In this document: in pieces, positions 51,518 to 61,517 of the stretch
Numbering within the stretch: position 1 is the first letter of the stretch
How the letters are laid out: each line of letters starts with the position of its first letter
Notes under the pieces: generated by a model
The model's database searches: none
Seen by the model: the letters and a program-made list of their open reading frames with translations, nothing else
What the model was told of the DNA's origin: nothing
Origin: Mesotoga sp. BH458_6_3_2_1
Lineage (GTDB): Bacteria; Thermotogota; Thermotogae; Petrotogales; Kosmotogaceae
Assembly: GCF_003664995.1 (NCBI RefSeq)
Contig: NZ_JFHL01000027.1
Location: 1-64,000, forward strand
DNA length: 64,000 nucleotides
Direction: 5' to 3'
Program-made: the position numbers and the translations under genes

Positions 51518-52624
51518 ATGCAGAGAGTATCGGATGATTTTGGAAGAAACCTGAGTGTTTCAGCCTCGGCAGCTTTGGAGTACGAGTCTCAGGGAGAGAA
51601 GATGTTGAAGAGGGTCAATGAGCTTATGGCGGCGAGAGAGGATATTTCTGAGCTTCTCGGCATGAATCCGCTATACATTATGTATGACAACAACTCGAAT
51701 CATCTTCGATTCATCTCAAATGTGATTAAGCTGAACGACTACGATCTCCTGGCGAAGACTCTACCCTGGGTCTATAAGACGTACACCTCGAGAAACTTCT
51801 CGGTCGATTTCTTTCCTGAAGTCTTGAAAGCCTGGATGAATGCAATAAATGAATTTCTAAGTCTGGAAGACGCCGCTCAAGTTGTCGAGGTATATAGGGC
51901 CATGCTGGATTCTCATAATGCGGCTGTTCAGCATGCTCAAGAAGGTCTTATCCAGATGAAGGTTGACGAGGACTGGAAGCCCGTCGAGAGGAAGACTGTC
52001 CTTGCGTTACTCACAGGCGATTACAAAGAGCTCAAAGAGATTGCTAACCGTTCAATCAACAGTGAAGAGTCGCTTGCCGATTTCTATCTGAAGGTAGTTC
52101 AACCGGCAATGTATGAGATAGGCTACCTGTGGCAGATCGGTGAGATATCCGTTGCCGAGGAGCATCTTGCGACTTCTCTCATGAACAGACTTATGGCAAG
52201 CACCTACAGCATGATCGAGACCGTGCCTTCGCACCCCAGAAGAAAGGCAGTAGTACTCAGTTCGCAGAACGAGTACCATGAGCTTGGAGCAAGGATAATA
52301 GCCGATCTTCTTGAGTTGAGTGGCTGGAACGTCAGCTATCTCGGTGCCAACACGCCGGTATCCGAAGTCCTTAAGCATCTGAAGAAAAATCTGCCTATGT
52401 TGCTTGCCGTTTCCGTTACAATGTCCTTCAACCTGGATCTCACGAAAAAGCTTATTCAATCCGTCAGATATGATAGTGATTTCGAGGAAATGAAGATCAT
52501 GGTTGGAGGTCTTGTAATCAACGAATCGGAGGACCTCTGGAAGAGGCTGGGAGCAGACGGAACTGCCGAATCGGCCGTTGAAGCTATCGAGCTTGCCAAA
52601 AAATGGTGGGAAGAACGTGAATGA
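51518..52624 (+). CDS. Cobalamin-binding sensor protein with CarH-like B12 module
   Basis: This 368-residue soluble protein has an N-terminal helical region (1-150, family unknown). A four-helix B12-capping bundle (about 155-235) follows and contains W205-x9-E215-H216 (LWQIGEISVAEEHLATS), the Wx9EH signature of CarH/LitR photoreceptors. The Rossmann B12 domain (about 243-365) has E252-x-H254-x-x-G257 (NEYHELG), His254 being the expected lower axial ligand. Unlike CarH it has no MerR DNA-binding domain, and the residue after Trp205 is Gln rather than His. It overlaps the downstream diguanylate cyclase by eight bases (GTGAATGA), so it is probably its sensory partner. Start at 51518 follows GGGGAG. 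Confidence 0.85.
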   Translation: MQRVSDDFGRNLSVSASAALEYESQGEKMLKRVNELMAAREDISELLGMNPLYIMYDNNSNHLRFISNVIKLNDYDLLAKTLPWVYKTYTSRNFSVDFFPEVLKAWMNAINEFLSLEDAAQVVEVYRAMLDSHNAAVQHAQEGLIQMKVDEDWKPVERKTVLALLTGDYKELKEIANRSINSEESLADFYLKVVQPAMYEIGYLWQIGEISVAEEHLATSLMNRLMASTYSMIETVPSHPRRKAVVLSSQNEYHELGARIIADLLELSGWNVSYLGANTPVSEVLKHLKKNLPMLLAVSVTMSFNLDLTKKLIQSVRYDSDFEEMKIMVGGLVINESEDLWKRLGADGTAESAVEAIELAKKWWEERE

Positions 52625-53552
52625 GCTGAGAAAGGCTATCCTTTCTAGGAGAGATGATTTCTTTTCCGTTCTCGAGAGTCTATCTGGAGCTATTCTAATT
52701 CTCTTTGACAACGAAGGCAACATCCTCGATCACAGCCCTTCTCTGATTTCTCTAGTCGAGAGAAGTGATACTCTCGTAGGCGAGAACATATGCGATCTTG
52801 TGGTGGACAATTCCCAAGCTCTATTGAAGAGACATGGAGAGAAGCCTGTGAGAATCGGTCTTAACGATTCAAGATCGAACATTCATCTAGTGAGCGGATT
52901 TGTCATGCTGGTCGACGAGTCAAGGAGGCTGTTTCTGGGCGTGAAGATCGGCCTTTCGGCCGGAGACATTATGGAGAGCATGTCGAAAGTTACGGATGAG
53001 CTCGCATCGCTAACGAGAGAGTTAGGGCGGAAGAACAAAGAGCTTCAGGCTGCAAATAAAGAGATAGAAAGACTGATGAACTGCGATCCATTGACTGGAT
53101 TGTCGAACAGGCGCGAGTTCATGAGCAGGCTCGATAAAGAGATAGAAAGCCTATGCTCGACCTGCAAACCTCTTTCAATAATTATGGCAGACATAGACGA
53201 CTTCAAGAAAGTCAACGACACTAGAGGCCACCCTGAGGGTGACAGAGTTCTGCAGCAGTTTGCCGATATCCTAAACGAGATAATCTCACCAAGGCGGACT
53301 ACTGTGAGATACGGCGGTGAGGAATTTATCGTAATGCTTCCCGAAACAACTTCGAAAGAGGCTACCGAGATTGCCGAACAGGTCAGAAAGAACTTCGAGG
53401 AAGAGACTGAGAAAAAGCTCGGATTTACAGTCACGGCCAGCTTCGGGGTCGCCACATTTAAACCTTCAGACACGAAATCAAGCATACTGAAGCGAGTTGA
53501 CGATGCTCTTTACAGTGCAAAATCCGGTGGAAAGAACAGAGTCGTGCATTGA
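52617..53552 (+). CDS. Diguanylate cyclase with N-terminal PAS-like domain (GGEEF)
   Basis: This 312-residue cytoplasmic protein has a PAS-like domain (about residues 5-115: FFSVLESLSGAILILFDNEG), a coiled coil (about 125-160: LTRELGRKNKELQAANKEIE) and a GGDEF domain with the active variant YGGEEF. The residues before it (SPRRTTVRY) lack the RxxD inhibitory site, unlike the cyclase at 4226. A GTG at 52617 with GGTGGG upstream is chosen; the frame is open 39 bases further up inside the sensor gene. It is translationally coupled to the B12-sensor protein, implying that cobalamin state or light controls c-di-GMP synthesis. Confidence 0.9.
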   Translation: MNELRKAILSRRDDFFSVLESLSGAILILFDNEGNILDHSPSLISLVERSDTLVGENICDLVVDNSQALLKRHGEKPVRIGLNDSRSNIHLVSGFVMLVDESRRLFLGVKIGLSAGDIMESMSKVTDELASLTRELGRKNKELQAANKEIERLMNCDPLTGLSNRREFMSRLDKEIESLCSTCKPLSIIMADIDDFKKVNDTRGHPEGDRVLQQFADILNEIISPRRTTVRYGGEEFIVMLPETTSKEATEIAEQVRKNFEEETEKKLGFTVTASFGVATFKPSDTKSSILKRVDDALYSAKSGGKNRVVH

Positions 53553-56598: not shown

Positions 56599-58680
56599 CT
56601 ACGACCGTTCTTTTTCTTCAAGTGCTTCGATTAATCCTCTGATTTCGGGGGAGTCGACTCCTGACTTTTCGATTGCCGAAAGGATCGCTCCGAAAGCAGG
56701 ATTTGATCTCTGAACGCTACTAAGATCAGATATTCTGCAAAGCCTCTCTAGTTCTCTTTCAATAGTCTCAACGACTTTCATTCTAAGTGATCTGGAGACT
56801 TTTCGAAGCGAGTTAGAGATGATCTTCGCGGTTTCTGCTTTCAGAACGGGATTTATCAGCCATCCATTGTCCAGGACGGTCATGATGCGGCAGTCGTCCG
56901 AGTATAAAGGATCTTCGGATACAGCATACAGCAGCATACGCCAGAGGATAGGAGCCCTGGATCGCCTCCACCATTCGTAATAGAAGTCCCTGTCTTTGTT
57001 GTCGGTTTTTATCAAGTGAAGGATCGTATCACGTACGAGATCTATATAGATATGAAGCCATTCCGGGTTTGACTCCGGCTCGCTCTCTTCGATGGTCTTT
57101 CTCGCGCTGCAGATGCTGTCGTACTCTCTTAAGGAGCTATTAGTTACCGACATGTCTGTGACGGCCTTCATTAGTTGCGAAGTCAGAATCGAAAGGATGT
57201 CTTCGTGTAGAGTGTCAAGGTTCGGTTCAATGATTTCAGACCAGAATCTCTTCAAGCAATCGGCTTCTACAAGAGGTTCAAGATCGTATTGCCTGTGAAA
57301 GAGGGAAAGCTTCGCTGGTTTTCCAGTCTGCGAAAGAGAGAAGAAGTTCTGAATGGCCTTCGCTACTATCCAAGGGTTTGCGGAGACATCGACCTTCTTC
57401 AGGGCTTTCAGCATTGCGAGACCCGGTGTTTCTCCTTTGTGCCAGTTGTTGAGGATCAGATTCAACCATTCTGCCTGACAGGTATCTGGAATCTCCAGAT
57501 CACTGTCTGCCATATGTTCCACGATTGAAGAGACCAGATATGGGTTCAAGGATGATCTTCTGGAGACCAAAAAAGTCAAGTGTTCCTGGCGACTGCTTCC
57601 GAAAGCGGTTTTTACGAACCAGCGGGTGAGAGACTTCTCGATCTCTGTGAGAGTCCCTTCCTCTCGGAAGAGATTGTCCAACATCGCCTTTGAATCGAGC
57701 CATTCCACCCATTCGAAGTCCTCTGCGAAACGACAAAAGATCACAGTGAGGTCTTCGCGGTTGAGACAGTATGTTAGGTAGCTGTCGACCTTTTGATCCT
57801 TAGTAGGTTTCTTGCAGGCAATGCTTTCAATTCTTTCGGTATGGGTTTCAATATCTGAACTGGCCAGGGAAGTCCAGTTTTCAAGAGCCTTCTGGAGTTC
57901 GTAATGCACTTTCTTCTTTTCGGGTGAAAGTGGATATGAAACGGGAATCACGTTGATCTCTTTCCACCTCTCGGCATCGCTGGCGCTGACAAGCGCGTAT
58001 CTGTTCGATTGCCTTATGTCCAGCCCTCTTGCGAGGTAATCGACTATGGTATCTCTATGGCTGTACCCTATGAAGAGAATCGTGTAATCCGATAGGTAAA
58101 GGTCCCTAAGAAAGTCCCTCGCCCAACCCTCGGTGAGGTAAGCTCTTCCGAAGTCCCTGTTCGTAACAACAAGCCACCTTGAATCCTGTTCCACGTTTCC
58201 GTGAAGATATACTATTCCCCTGAAGTCGTCGCCCCTCGGTAGAGCGGGCGCTCTGAAGATGTCGAAGCCGTCGTATCTCTCTCCGTAATTCTTCAAGACG
58301 GTTAGAAAGTGAGCGTCGTAATTTGTCGTTACAATTTTGAGGTCCCGGGCGCTTTTGAATAGAAGAGGAATAAGGCTGTGAAGCTGTGATGGCCTGGAAG
58401 TTTGTTCACTCATTATCTGCTTCACCATTTCGTGGACGCCCAGTCCGCCATTCTTAGAGTTGAGACTGCCGAGAAAGACGTCCGGAGGTTGGACTCGCTG
58501 CTGTTTGACGTAGTATTTTTGACCGTAGCTTTTCGCTACGGCCTTTGCTAGATCGACAAAACCGGGTATGTTTGACGGCGAGGCCATCGAAACACCGGCA
58601 CCCGCGAAGACTACCAGCCTTTCTTCCTCCTGCGCCCTTATTAGTTCTGTCGGAATATCTACATGGTCTGTTAAGAGCAT
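56599..58680 (-). CDS. SIR2-domain protein, possible NADase-type phage-defence effector
   Basis: This 693-residue protein has an N-terminal SIR2-like domain (about 20-270): the NAD loop LVVFAGAGVSMASPSNIPGF, IVTTNYDAHF with the Asn-Asp pair, the catalytic-type His in VYLHGNVEQ, and ILFIGYSHRDTIVDYLA. The remaining ~420 residues are helical and of no recognised family. SIR2-plus-helical proteins such as DSR and Thoeris-type effectors deplete NAD during phage infection, and this architecture fits. No second defence gene adjoins it, so it may act alone. ATG at 58680 follows GGGAGGA. It is flanked by AT-rich and repeat-rich DNA. Confidence 0.8.
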   Translation of the reverse strand: MLLTDHVDIPTELIRAQEEERLVVFAGAGVSMASPSNIPGFVDLAKAVAKSYGQKYYVKQQRVQPPDVFLGSLNSKNGGLGVHEMVKQIMSEQTSRPSQLHSLIPLLFKSARDLKIVTTNYDAHFLTVLKNYGERYDGFDIFRAPALPRGDDFRGIVYLHGNVEQDSRWLVVTNRDFGRAYLTEGWARDFLRDLYLSDYTILFIGYSHRDTIVDYLARGLDIRQSNRYALVSASDAERWKEINVIPVSYPLSPEKKKVHYELQKALENWTSLASSDIETHTERIESIACKKPTKDQKVDSYLTYCLNREDLTVIFCRFAEDFEWVEWLDSKAMLDNLFREEGTLTEIEKSLTRWFVKTAFGSSRQEHLTFLVSRRSSLNPYLVSSIVEHMADSDLEIPDTCQAEWLNLILNNWHKGETPGLAMLKALKKVDVSANPWIVAKAIQNFFSLSQTGKPAKLSLFHRQYDLEPLVEADCLKRFWSEIIEPNLDTLHEDILSILTSQLMKAVTDMSVTNSSLREYDSICSARKTIEESEPESNPEWLHIYIDLVRDTILHLIKTDNKDRDFYYEWWRRSRAPILWRMLLYAVSEDPLYSDDCRIMTVLDNGWLINPVLKAETAKIISNSLRKVSRSLRMKVVETIERELERLCRISDLSSVQRSNPAFGAILSAIEKSGVDSPEIRGLIEALEEKERS

Positions 58681-59411
58681 TATTCCTCCCACTGTCTTTT
58701 CTCTTAAGAAGTCTTATTCACAGATTGAAACTAGTTTCTGAGCAAATCTTCATCAATGAAATGATACTCCATTGCTGCAGCCAGTGTTTAGAAACAGCCG
58801 ATAATAGAGACTCTGACTGAATTAAGCGTAAGGCCTGATTTGAAGCGATGTCATACTATCGACTGATATTTGGCTAGCGCTACTGATCGTCAGATTACCC
58901 AAACAATAAATCGAAATTAAATATTTCAAATAACACTAATATAATTATGATTTTAAGTTACATTATGGAAATGATAACAATTATAGTTCAAAATATACTC
59001 CTTAAATCTCGATCTGGCTCAATCAATTGTTAATGATGTAACTTTTGTTATTAAGTACTGAATTTGGGAACCTTTCAGATTTGCTATCAATGAGTTTTTT
59101 TATTCAAATGATTATTCTACAATGACTTTCAGATAAGGCTTTTAGAATAAACATACATTAGAATTCAATTCATTTAAATTGCACGAGTTGAAATAAGGAT
59201 GAATGAAGCCGCTCGAACAGGCAAAACTCGGACGTATTTTCTCGCTATGATGCTAAACTGAAGTCAAGGAATGAAATACGCCCCTCTCCTTCACTCACTC
59301 AGCGCTTCATATCGAGTTATGGCTCCTTGCGATTATTATAAAAGCTTTTTGGAAATCACATAATGATTCTGTGTAAGATTACCAATTGTTGTTAATGGAG
59401 GAGGGATGAGG
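58681..59411. other. AT-rich intergenic region
   Basis: About 730 bases, strongly AT-rich from 58900 to 59190, with no supported gene. It separates two divergent genes and should contain both promoters; TATTATAAAAG near 59334 is a possible -10 for the lipoprotein gene. The base composition differs from the rest of the window. Confidence 0.5.
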
Positions 59412-61517
59412 ATGAAAAGAGCTTATGTGTATGCTGTGGTATTGCTGCTTCTCGTAATGATTACCGGTTGTCCTTCATTCTGGAAATCGGCCGATGCCAC
59501 TTTAAAGAAGCTTATGTACAACGGAGTTGAAGTTCCCGAATTCAGTGCGAAGAAGACCTCGTATTCGATTGTACTCCCGGCGGGCACTACGGAACCGCCC
59601 ACTGTCACGGCCGTTCCAGCAGTTGAAGGGGTAAATATAGTTGTTACTGATGCAGAGACGCTTCCCGGGACTGCAACGGTAATCGTCACTTCCCTTAATG
59701 GAAAGGCAAGTCTAACTTACAGTATCTTCTTTACAGTGAAGGTAGTGATCTCGATTGTGGCCGATCCCACTGATGGAGGAGAATTCAGCGGAGACGGAGA
59801 ATACGTCTACGGGGATCTCGTAACTATAGTGGCCACACCATCCATTCATCACACTTTTAGTGGATGGTTTCTTGACGAACCTGAAGAAGTGAGTTTTGAG
59901 GAGAGCGGTGACGACCCAATATACACCGATCCGGTCGCCTCTTTCCCGGCTCTAAAGGATGTAAGTCTTTTGGTGGGATTCAATCCAATGGAATACACCT
60001 TCAATCTTGTGCCTGTTCCTCCTGAAGGTGGTGAAGTGGCCGGCGGAGGCGCTGTGAATTATGGTGACTCTGTAGGTTTGAGCGCGCTGTCTAATGAAGG
60101 CTATGGCTTTGCGGGATGGTGGATAGACGGCTATATGTTCAGTGATCAGGCCGCTGATCTGGTTAGTACAGTGGAAATTCTCAGTCATACGGCATGCATT
60201 ACCTGTACGGAATACACCGTTGAGGGGAGATTCGATCCTTCGGCCCCTAAGTGGCAATTAGACATTACTATTGAAGCGACTCCGGTTGATGGTGGTGAGA
60301 CCTGGGGCGAGGGAGTGTATCCGTACGGTAGTTATGTGACTGTCGGGGCGACACCTTCAGATCATTTCAATTTCGATGGGTGGTACGTCGGTGGGGAAGA
60401 GCTAAGCCAGGGCGCTACTTACACTTTCCCGGCAAATGACTGGTACACTGAGGGAATAACATACACCGCGCTTCCCTTACAGGGAGTGTTTGTAGACATA
60501 ATATACACATTCAATGCGGTTGCCGAACCTCCTGAAGGCGGAACGGCGAGCGGCGGAGGAACAGCCAAATACGGTGATCACGTTTCATTCCTGGCCGCAC
60601 CCAATGAATCCTACACTTTTGAGGGCTGGTACTATGGTGAAGAGAACATGAGCGGATCGCCAAGCTTCACCCTTGACACCGCCAGCTTCCTGGATACCCA
60701 TACGCTTCCCGTAACAAGCACAGAATCCAGCTTCATTTTTACGGCGAAGTTCCAACCCCAGACGCCGCCTCCTGGATGGCTTATGATTACGATCGATGCT
60801 TCACCGACTGACAAAGGTGAGGTGAGCGGCGCCGGAAAGTATTCGTATGGAGAAGAAGTCACACTCGGAGCGACACCGATTGATCATTTTGATTTTGGAG
60901 GTTGGTACACTGATGGGGAAATGTTGAGTGAGGATCTTCCATACACATTCAACACCTCCAACTGGCTAATAACAGAAGATGTGACCAAAACTCTCCCGGT
61001 AGAGGCCTGGTTCCCGCCGGTCTTCTATCATTTCAACGTAGTTGCAAATCCTCCCGAAGGCGGGGAAGTCATGGAAAGTGGTGTATTCATTTACGGCGAT
61101 CCTATGACGCTGGGTGCAATTCCTAATGACAATTACGTATTCAGGAACTGGACTTTCGAGGGAGCTGAGTTCAGCGATAATCCATTGTGGGAAGGGAATT
61201 CCACCTTCTTCCTTGCTAGATCGACTTGTATCGGCTGCACTGAATTCACCATAGTCGGCAATTTCGACCTGGATGTGCCCGACACAATTACTGTGAACTT
61301 GAGATCTGAACCACCGGAAGGCGGTCAAGTTAGCGGAGGAGGTCAATTCCCAAAGGGGTCGAGCACGGTTATAAGTGCGATGCCGAATCCCGGATATGGA
61401 TTTAGTGTCTGGTGCTACGATCCGTGCGAGAGCGTCTTTAGTGAGAGTCAGACTCTGACTATAAGCAATCTGCAGGAAGATATTAGCCTGTTTGCATCAT
61501 TCCATCCGCTTAACTAG
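59412..61517 (+). CDS. Surface lipoprotein with cadherin-like domain and InlB-type repeats
   Basis: This 701-residue lipoprotein has the signal AYVYAVVLLLLVMITGC with its lipobox Cys. A cadherin-like beta-sandwich domain follows (LKKLMYNGVEVPEFSAKKTS region to about residue 115). Then come seven beta repeats of about 75 residues with the pattern P-x-x-GG-x-x-SG-G-x-Y-x-YGD, ending ATP-x-x-x-x-F-x-GWY (for example ATPSDHFNFDGWY, AAPNESYTFEGWY, ATPIDHFDFGGWY). Such Flg_new/InlB-like repeats occur in surface adhesins. The start at 59412 follows GGAGGAGGG. Appears monocistronic. Confidence 0.85.
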   Translation: MKRAYVYAVVLLLLVMITGCPSFWKSADATLKKLMYNGVEVPEFSAKKTSYSIVLPAGTTEPPTVTAVPAVEGVNIVVTDAETLPGTATVIVTSLNGKASLTYSIFFTVKVVISIVADPTDGGEFSGDGEYVYGDLVTIVATPSIHHTFSGWFLDEPEEVSFEESGDDPIYTDPVASFPALKDVSLLVGFNPMEYTFNLVPVPPEGGEVAGGGAVNYGDSVGLSALSNEGYGFAGWWIDGYMFSDQAADLVSTVEILSHTACITCTEYTVEGRFDPSAPKWQLDITIEATPVDGGETWGEGVYPYGSYVTVGATPSDHFNFDGWYVGGEELSQGATYTFPANDWYTEGITYTALPLQGVFVDIIYTFNAVAEPPEGGTASGGGTAKYGDHVSFLAAPNESYTFEGWYYGEENMSGSPSFTLDTASFLDTHTLPVTSTESSFIFTAKFQPQTPPPGWLMITIDASPTDKGEVSGAGKYSYGEEVTLGATPIDHFDFGGWYTDGEMLSEDLPYTFNTSNWLITEDVTKTLPVEAWFPPVFYHFNVVANPPEGGEVMESGVFIYGDPMTLGAIPNDNYVFRNWTFEGAEFSDNPLWEGNSTFFLARSTCIGCTEFTIVGNFDLDVPDTITVNLRSEPPEGGQVSGGGQFPKGSSTVISAMPNPGYGFSVWCYDPCESVFSESQTLTISNLQEDISLFASFHPLN

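Follow-up and report, generated by a model that had tools for sequence, protein, structure and literature searches.

What does a CarH-type cobalamin-binding protein control when its gene runs into that of a diguanylate cyclase (DGC)? The two genes lie on the forward strand of the window, by which we mean the whole stretch of 64,000 nucleotides analysed, which comes from an anaerobic member of the Thermotogota. The sensor gene (51518..52624), from an ATG at 51518 to a TGA stop at 52622-52624, encodes 368 aa, none of them cysteine, with a globin-like domain followed by B12-binding_2 and B12-binding domains; the DGC gene (52617..53552) has a GTG start and encodes 311 aa. A first-pass annotation had described a CarH-like B12 sensor coupled to a PAS-GGEEF cyclase, which together would form a two-protein switch. 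The gene positions, the eight-base overlap and the Wx9EH, ExHxxG and GGEEF motifs that it listed were all confirmed in the sequence, and both the two-protein logic and a module of the B12-photoreceptor type are supported, as is a conserved pairing of the genes.

The sensor protein: a cobalamin module behind a globin-type domain

Two Pfam domains make up the cobalamin module. The four-helix B12-binding_2 domain (PF02607; 51992..52198, residues 159-227, E 6.7e-16) carries G202xxW205 and E215-H216, and within it the W205-Q206-x8-E215-H216 motif (52130..52165) corresponds to the adenosyl pocket of CarH and photocobilins, where the Trp and the Glu-His contact the adenosyl group across the dimer. 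The Rossmann B12-binding domain (PF02310; 52244..52588, residues 243-357, E 1.3e-18) carries E252-x-H254-x-x-G257 and G276xxxP280 and matched CarH, CtMerR and photocobilins in the PDB; H254 is predicted to be the lower axial ligand. Residues W205, Q206, E215, H216, E252, H254 and G257 were identical in all eight sequences of an alignment, and W205 and E215-H216 stayed invariant in alignments with relatives at 24-40% identity. The PDB sequence search placed SasPcob at the top for the B12 module (E 1e-20) with CtMerR, AbPcob and CarH behind, and 4jgi, a cobalamin protein without a known photoreceptor role, also ranked high; the fold search with a full-length model returned CtMerR, SasPcob and CarH as the top matches of the module.

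The light-responsive cobalamin-binding signature of SignatureFinder comprises GxxW, EH, GxxxP and GxxH (PMC11796333). Three of these four elements are present in the sensor (G202-Y-L-W205, E215-H216 and G276-A-N-T-P280); the fourth reads N251-E-Y-H254, with the axial His retained and the Gly replaced by Asn, whereas the Gly is retained in the sensors of Azospirillum and of genome G073. The Gln that had been pointed out directly after Trp205, at the position of His132 of CarH, is there as Q206; it is already known from SasPcob, which is still light-reactive, responding to green light without a bis-His state (PMC11796333).

No DNA-binding domain or HTH was detected in the sensor by Pfam or NCBIfam, in agreement with the first-pass annotation, and with 59.2 bits against a cut-off of 400 in the NCBIfam TransRegCarH model the protein is not a CarH repressor, which has a MerR-type DNA-binding domain. 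Its weak NCBIfam matches to methyltransferase corrinoid proteins fell far under the cut-off. A reading as such a protein was rejected because corrinoid methyltransferase proteins and MetH form a group apart from the sensor in our tree (support 95/97), the long branches of which give the sensor no firm placement relative to CarH and photocobilins. A second B12-binding protein, found genus-wide, is encoded elsewhere in the host genome (contig C17, locus L093 4839-5519, reverse strand); it has 226 aa with W-x13-EH and EYHEIGAR, its gene overlaps that of an FtsX/MacB-like permease beside an ABC ATPase, and it is possibly another cobalamin sensor.

The N-terminal part of the sensor, about 150 residues (51518..51967), adopts in our model a globin fold of the phycobiliprotein/photoglobin type. 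Pfam gave no match for this domain in the window sensor; a phmmer search from the window sequence by itself yielded nothing but spurious TPR matches, and a TPR reading was rejected. With the full-length model, B12-domain matches dominated the fold search and the globin stayed hidden; it came to light in a separate structure prediction of the first 150 residues, such as the first-pass annotation had proposed to run. With this template-free AlphaFold2 model (pTM 0.77), nearly all of the top 50 PDB neighbours in Foldseek were allophycocyanins, other phycobilisome subunits or the biliverdin protein smURFP (probability 1.00, TM mostly about 0.6-0.67, E-values only about 0.002-0.05). Relatives point the same way: in the Azospirillum thermophilum protein, to which the window sensor aligns starting at residue 62, the N-terminal domain matches Pfam Phycobilisome (PF00502) over the cut-off (E 3.7e-9), and two relatives from another Thermotogota family, f10, match it under the cut-off (E 0.006 and 0.04). 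By hhalign, all N-terminal domains taken together matched the C-terminal globins of five Streptomyces photocobilins with 96% probability; the window's clade (with Ilyobacter) alone gave a weak 5.5% (range 4-6%) against the photocobilins and 36.5% against the Azospirillum/f10 set, scoring higher than 100 column-shuffled controls in the first comparison and 200 in the second.

We class the sensor as a photocobilin-like protein whose domains stand in the reverse order. It joins a B12 module and a phycobiliprotein-like globin in a single chain, a match that is weak by the sequences of the window's clade and strong via relatives and fold, and its globin precedes the B12 module, not following it C-terminally as in photocobilins. 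The N-terminal globin makes photocobilins, not CarH, the right comparison. Thus, what stands of the CarH-like sensor is the CarH/photocobilin-type module; its description as a CarH minus the DNA-binding domain had missed the globin and does not hold.

The partner cyclase and the recurrence of the pair

The start of the DGC gene overlaps the sensor stop by 8 bp, GTGAATGA (52617..52624), an arrangement of the translational coupling type, with a GGTGG Shine-Dalgarno-like run directly upstream of the start. The overlap is kept in all five intact copies from the same genus, one of which reads GTGGATAG. No consensus sigma-70 promoter was found upstream of the pair on the forward strand. Both genes are under purifying selection, with dN/dS of about 0.09 each versus the nearest orthologue (0.053/0.619 for the sensor and 0.037/0.416 for the DGC).

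The GGDEF domain of the partner (PF00990; 53079..53540, residues 155-308, E 7.8e-44, 149.7 bits) contains GGEEF at 53313-53327. Its metal and GTP residues are intact (GGEEF, D192, N200, D201 and D209 are conserved), and the partner is predicted to be a catalytically competent diguanylate cyclase. The residues before GGEEF are S-P-R-R-T-T-V-R-Y, hence the RxxD I-site is absent as previously noted; many cyclases are without RxxD, however, and its absence is weak evidence for the control by a partner that had been read from it. The PAS half of the PAS-GGEEF description is likewise weak, as Pfam found no PAS in the window cyclase and matched the PAS-like N-terminal region (52662..52946) below threshold in two orthologous partners only (E 0.0023 and 0.085). 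Between this region and the GGDEF domain lies a coiled-coil linker (52974..53078) with residues common to all partner cyclases in the alignment (L129, R134, K139 and N147 are invariant), a candidate signalling helix.

We then asked how widely the two genes travel together. A search of 103 Thermotogota genomes with an orthologue profile (cut-off E 1e-20) found full-length sensors in eight genomes of two families, five from the window's genus (G000, which is the host's own genome, G001, G003, G007 and G008) and three from the f10 family (G073, G080 and G082). Each of these eight sensor genes has a GGDEF gene as its same-strand neighbour. Several genomic contexts and both gene orders occur; in G080 the cyclase gene comes first and the sensor second, again with an 8-bp overlap. 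The differing surroundings and the cyclase-first order in G080 argue that the link between sensor and GGDEF goes beyond inherited synteny. A sensor gene from a second genus of the window's family (G010, L043 5976-8210) is disrupted by one TGA and frame breaks next to an intact GGDEF gene, which reflects either real decay or an assembly error. The partner's N-terminal region is confined to sensor-bearing genomes, bar one marginal match (E 5e-4). A scan of contigs with patterns specific to the genus, whose scope is therefore the genus and not a wider spread, returned two close relatives only.

Outside the phylum, plasmid pILYOP01 of Ilyobacter polytropus (Fusobacteriota) carries a sensor gene (WP_013388897) adjoining a GGDEF gene (WP_013388898) with a 20-bp overlap. 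The encoded sensor is 39.6% identical over 96% of the window sensor, and its place within the window's clade (support 96/95) suggests a transfer between Fusobacteriota and Thermotogota. The neighbourhood survey thus found the pairing conserved in eight Thermotogota genomes and Ilyobacter; a lack of pairing in relatives, which the first-pass annotation would have counted as a refutation, was not what we observed. As there are just 18 GGDEF domains in a genome of ~3.2 Mb, for which we roughly estimate a chance adjacency of about 1% per genome, such repetition is not due to chance. The output is not fixed, however, since a related globin-B12 sensor on an Azospirillum thermophilum plasmid (L073 4851-7145) is followed by a HAMP histidine kinase gene and a related sensor of Skermanella lies beside no obvious output enzyme.

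Three further observations were made on the host genome and the window. No PilZ domain was found in the host genome despite its 18 GGDEF domains. A SIR2-like protein of 697 aa (56599-58692, reverse strand) matches in its N-terminal half the DSR1 anti-phage defence family (PADLOC E 2.5e-42) and is shorter than the DSR1 models of ~1250 positions. A 703-aa protein (59406-61517, forward strand) with seven divergent InlB B-repeat (Flg_new_2) stretches is probably a surface protein.

Apparent bilin loss, cobalamin supply and the nature of the signal

In SasPcob, biliverdin (BV) is contacted by Asp270 and Trp296 (PMC10979010). The 26-residue spacing between the two positions is kept in all sequences, which fixes the register, and the equivalents in the window sensor are N58 and W84; the BV-binding Asp is thus replaced by Asn58. 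AbPcob is also without the Asp, which is kept in the Azospirillum and f10-family relatives. A search for heme oxygenase that covered 61 Thermotogota genomes, the three paired f10-family genomes and the Ilyobacter plasmid record (the plasmid only) found none, and the absence of this enzyme from the host genome and relatives makes BV binding and two-chromophore photochemistry unlikely. Judging from these residues and genomes, bilin binding has apparently been lost by the sensor. As for cobalamin, the host genome is without CbiC, a marker of corrin synthesis, and encodes a PduO-type adenosyltransferase; the sole cobalamin riboswitch found adjoins a BtuFCD-like ABC importer, recognised by eye from its sequence, and the 64-kb window contains no cobalamin riboswitch or other Rfam RNA. 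B12 appears to be salvaged rather than made in the host.

We consider it probable that the pair is a split photocobilin-type signalling unit, in which the sensor loaded with adenosylcobalamin (AdoCbl) restrains the cyclase and loss of the adenosyl group releases it. The first protein would be a soluble, dimer-forming sensor with a bilin-free phycobiliprotein-like globin followed by the CarH/photocobilin-type cobalamin module, in which His254 would bind AdoCbl base-off, Trp205 would stack against the adenosyl group and Glu215-His216 of the second subunit would clamp that group. We infer that the sensor contacts the cyclase, with the PAS-like/coiled-coil part of the latter as the probable site, and that in the AdoCbl-loaded form it would hold cyclase activity down. 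Breakage of the Co-C bond or a lack of AdoCbl would make the sensor rearrange and free the cyclase, such that c-di-GMP would rise. The trigger for adenosyl loss may be light, or redox or B12 status. This restraint and release should hold by analogy with AbDPcob, in which dark AdoCbl lowers DGC activity and illumination raises c-di-GMP synthesis more than 10-fold, and stand-alone photocobilins alter the activity of an isolated DGC in trans in a concentration-dependent manner (PMC10979010). The direction of control is uncertain, since in SasPcob without biliverdin the sign of cyclase control is reversed (PMC10979010).

Which signal would the pair perceive? The habitats of the known relatives are mostly dark and anoxic. 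Effective monomerisation of CarH needs oxygen, according to CarH work as cited in PMC11796333. On both counts a light switch is not obvious, and for an anaerobe of this kind we rate light as no more likely than a signal from cobalamin status or redox. A competing explanation retains the pair and gives it a signal other than light: the availability or the adenosylation/redox state of imported cobalamin would tune c-di-GMP, and the photoreceptor-type pocket would be merely an ancestral AdoCbl pocket. The missing CbiC next to an adenosyltransferase and a riboswitch-controlled importer, the lack of any heme oxygenase match in 61 genomes and in the remaining paired ones, the change of the BV-binding Asp to Asn58 in a sensor without Cys, the change of the Gly of GxxH to Asn and the dark, anoxic habitats all agree with it. 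The invariance of W205 and E215-H216 at 24-40% identity does not, being expected if adenosyl release matters, and a pure B12-level sensor would have no obvious need for these residues. We regard this explanation as a real possibility that falls short of probable. More tentatively, we suggest that a light-independent or facultatively light-dependent AdoCbl/redox sensor may control c-di-GMP in B12-importing anaerobes, its pigment-free phycobiliprotein-type domain now serving in protein interaction or allostery.

A light sensor proper would be a green-light AdoCbl photoreceptor that turns on c-di-GMP once cells arrive at lit surface sediment or lit hot-spring mats, through aquo/hydroxo-cobalamin chemistry like that of SasPcob. 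The lineage is anaerobic and from sites that are mostly dark, the GxxH element is incomplete, and the oxygen-dependent step of CarH would be unavailable, yet CtMerR provides a case of anaerobic photolysis without monomerisation. The Trp, the Glu-His, the axial His and GxxxP are retained, the Gln is as in SasPcob, and AbDPcob sets a precedent (PMC10979010); possible as it is, we hold this reading to be doubtful. It is improbable that the genes are coincidental neighbours, a methyltransferase corrinoid subunit or orphan sensor beside an independent cyclase: the sub-threshold NCBIfam matches and the sensors found beside other genes in Alphaproteobacteria would fit, but the repeated side-by-side position in two phyla, in either order and with overlapping genes, largely refutes it, AbDPcob is a natural fusion, corrinoid methyltransferase proteins and MetH stand separate in the tree (95/97), and we noticed no methyltransferase gene next to the pair. 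Finally, it is highly improbable that the globin extends the spectrum into the red with a bound bilin, as that of SasPcob does, given Asn58 at the Asp270 equivalent, the absence of Cys and the failure to find heme oxygenase in the host genome or relatives, even with the phycobiliprotein-like fold, W84 aligned with Trp296 and the Asp retained in Azospirillum and f10-family relatives.

Comparison with known systems

The split photocobilin-type unit that we favour resembles AbDPcob of Acidimicrobiaceae (PDB 8J2Y, PMC10979010) in its parts, a DGC, a B12 module and a phycobiliprotein-like globin, and the control of c-di-GMP synthesis by the AdoCbl state in AbDPcob is proposed likewise for the pair. 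A c-di-GMP output had been thought new for this module; a diguanylate cyclase is already under the control of AdoCbl photochemistry in AbDPcob (PMC10979010), and that claim falls. The BV-binding Asp is lost in both, replaced by His in AbDPcob, where the loss weakens BV binding, and by Asn58 in the window sensor. AbDPcob is one polypeptide ordered DGC-B12-globin, whereas the pair consists of two genes, globin-B12 and then PAS-like-GGEEF.

SasPcob and other stand-alone photocobilins (PDB 8J2W/8J2X) share with the sensor a globin domain and a B12 module with W and EH, and SasPcob also the Gln after the Trp. In vitro they can control a cyclase in trans, as we propose for the pair; however, the globin of SasPcob is C-terminal and binds BV, whereas that of the window sensor is N-terminal and without the BV-binding Asp. 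Photocobilin homologues on Streptomyces plasmids have PP2C/STAS output genes where the window sensor has GGDEF. In three such plasmids (L081, L082 and L085), photocobilin genes ordered B12 then globin overlap or abut genes for a PP2C phosphatase and STAS proteins, a parallel two-protein arrangement. CarH and LitR of Thermus and Myxococcus have a cobalamin module with W, EH and axial His like that of the sensor, but they carry a MerR DNA-binding domain and His132 and act on DNA, while the sensor lacks both and would act on an enzyme. The photoglobin/BBAG-2 globins are, like that of the sensor, phycobiliprotein-related and combined with B12-binding proteins; they accompany heme oxygenase in the genome (PMC10151467), whereas our search for this enzyme found none and the sensor has lost the bilin residue.

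A literature search found no description of the pair; the photoglobin study PMC8717448, which may list such architectures, was outside that search, and PMC11796333 mentions more BBD-CBD fusions without details on the pair. The pair extends photocobilin-type sensing to anaerobes from two phyla and, with no heme oxygenase found in Thermotogota, indicates that the bilin and B12 functions are separable. It would be a natural two-protein version of an in-trans control that until now was known only from reconstitutions with separated or mixed proteins. Should B12 status be the signal, a vitamin shared between microbes would be linked to the control of lifestyle by c-di-GMP; should it be light, the sensor would be an anoxic B12 photoreceptor. 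The split Thermotogota pair could also be handy for optogenetics. Photocobilins had already revealed the sensing principle and AbDPcob the c-di-GMP output. Apparently new are the division of the system between two genes, which is conserved in two phyla, the placement of the globin before the B12 module, the seeming loss of bilin binding and the occurrence of the system in anaerobes.
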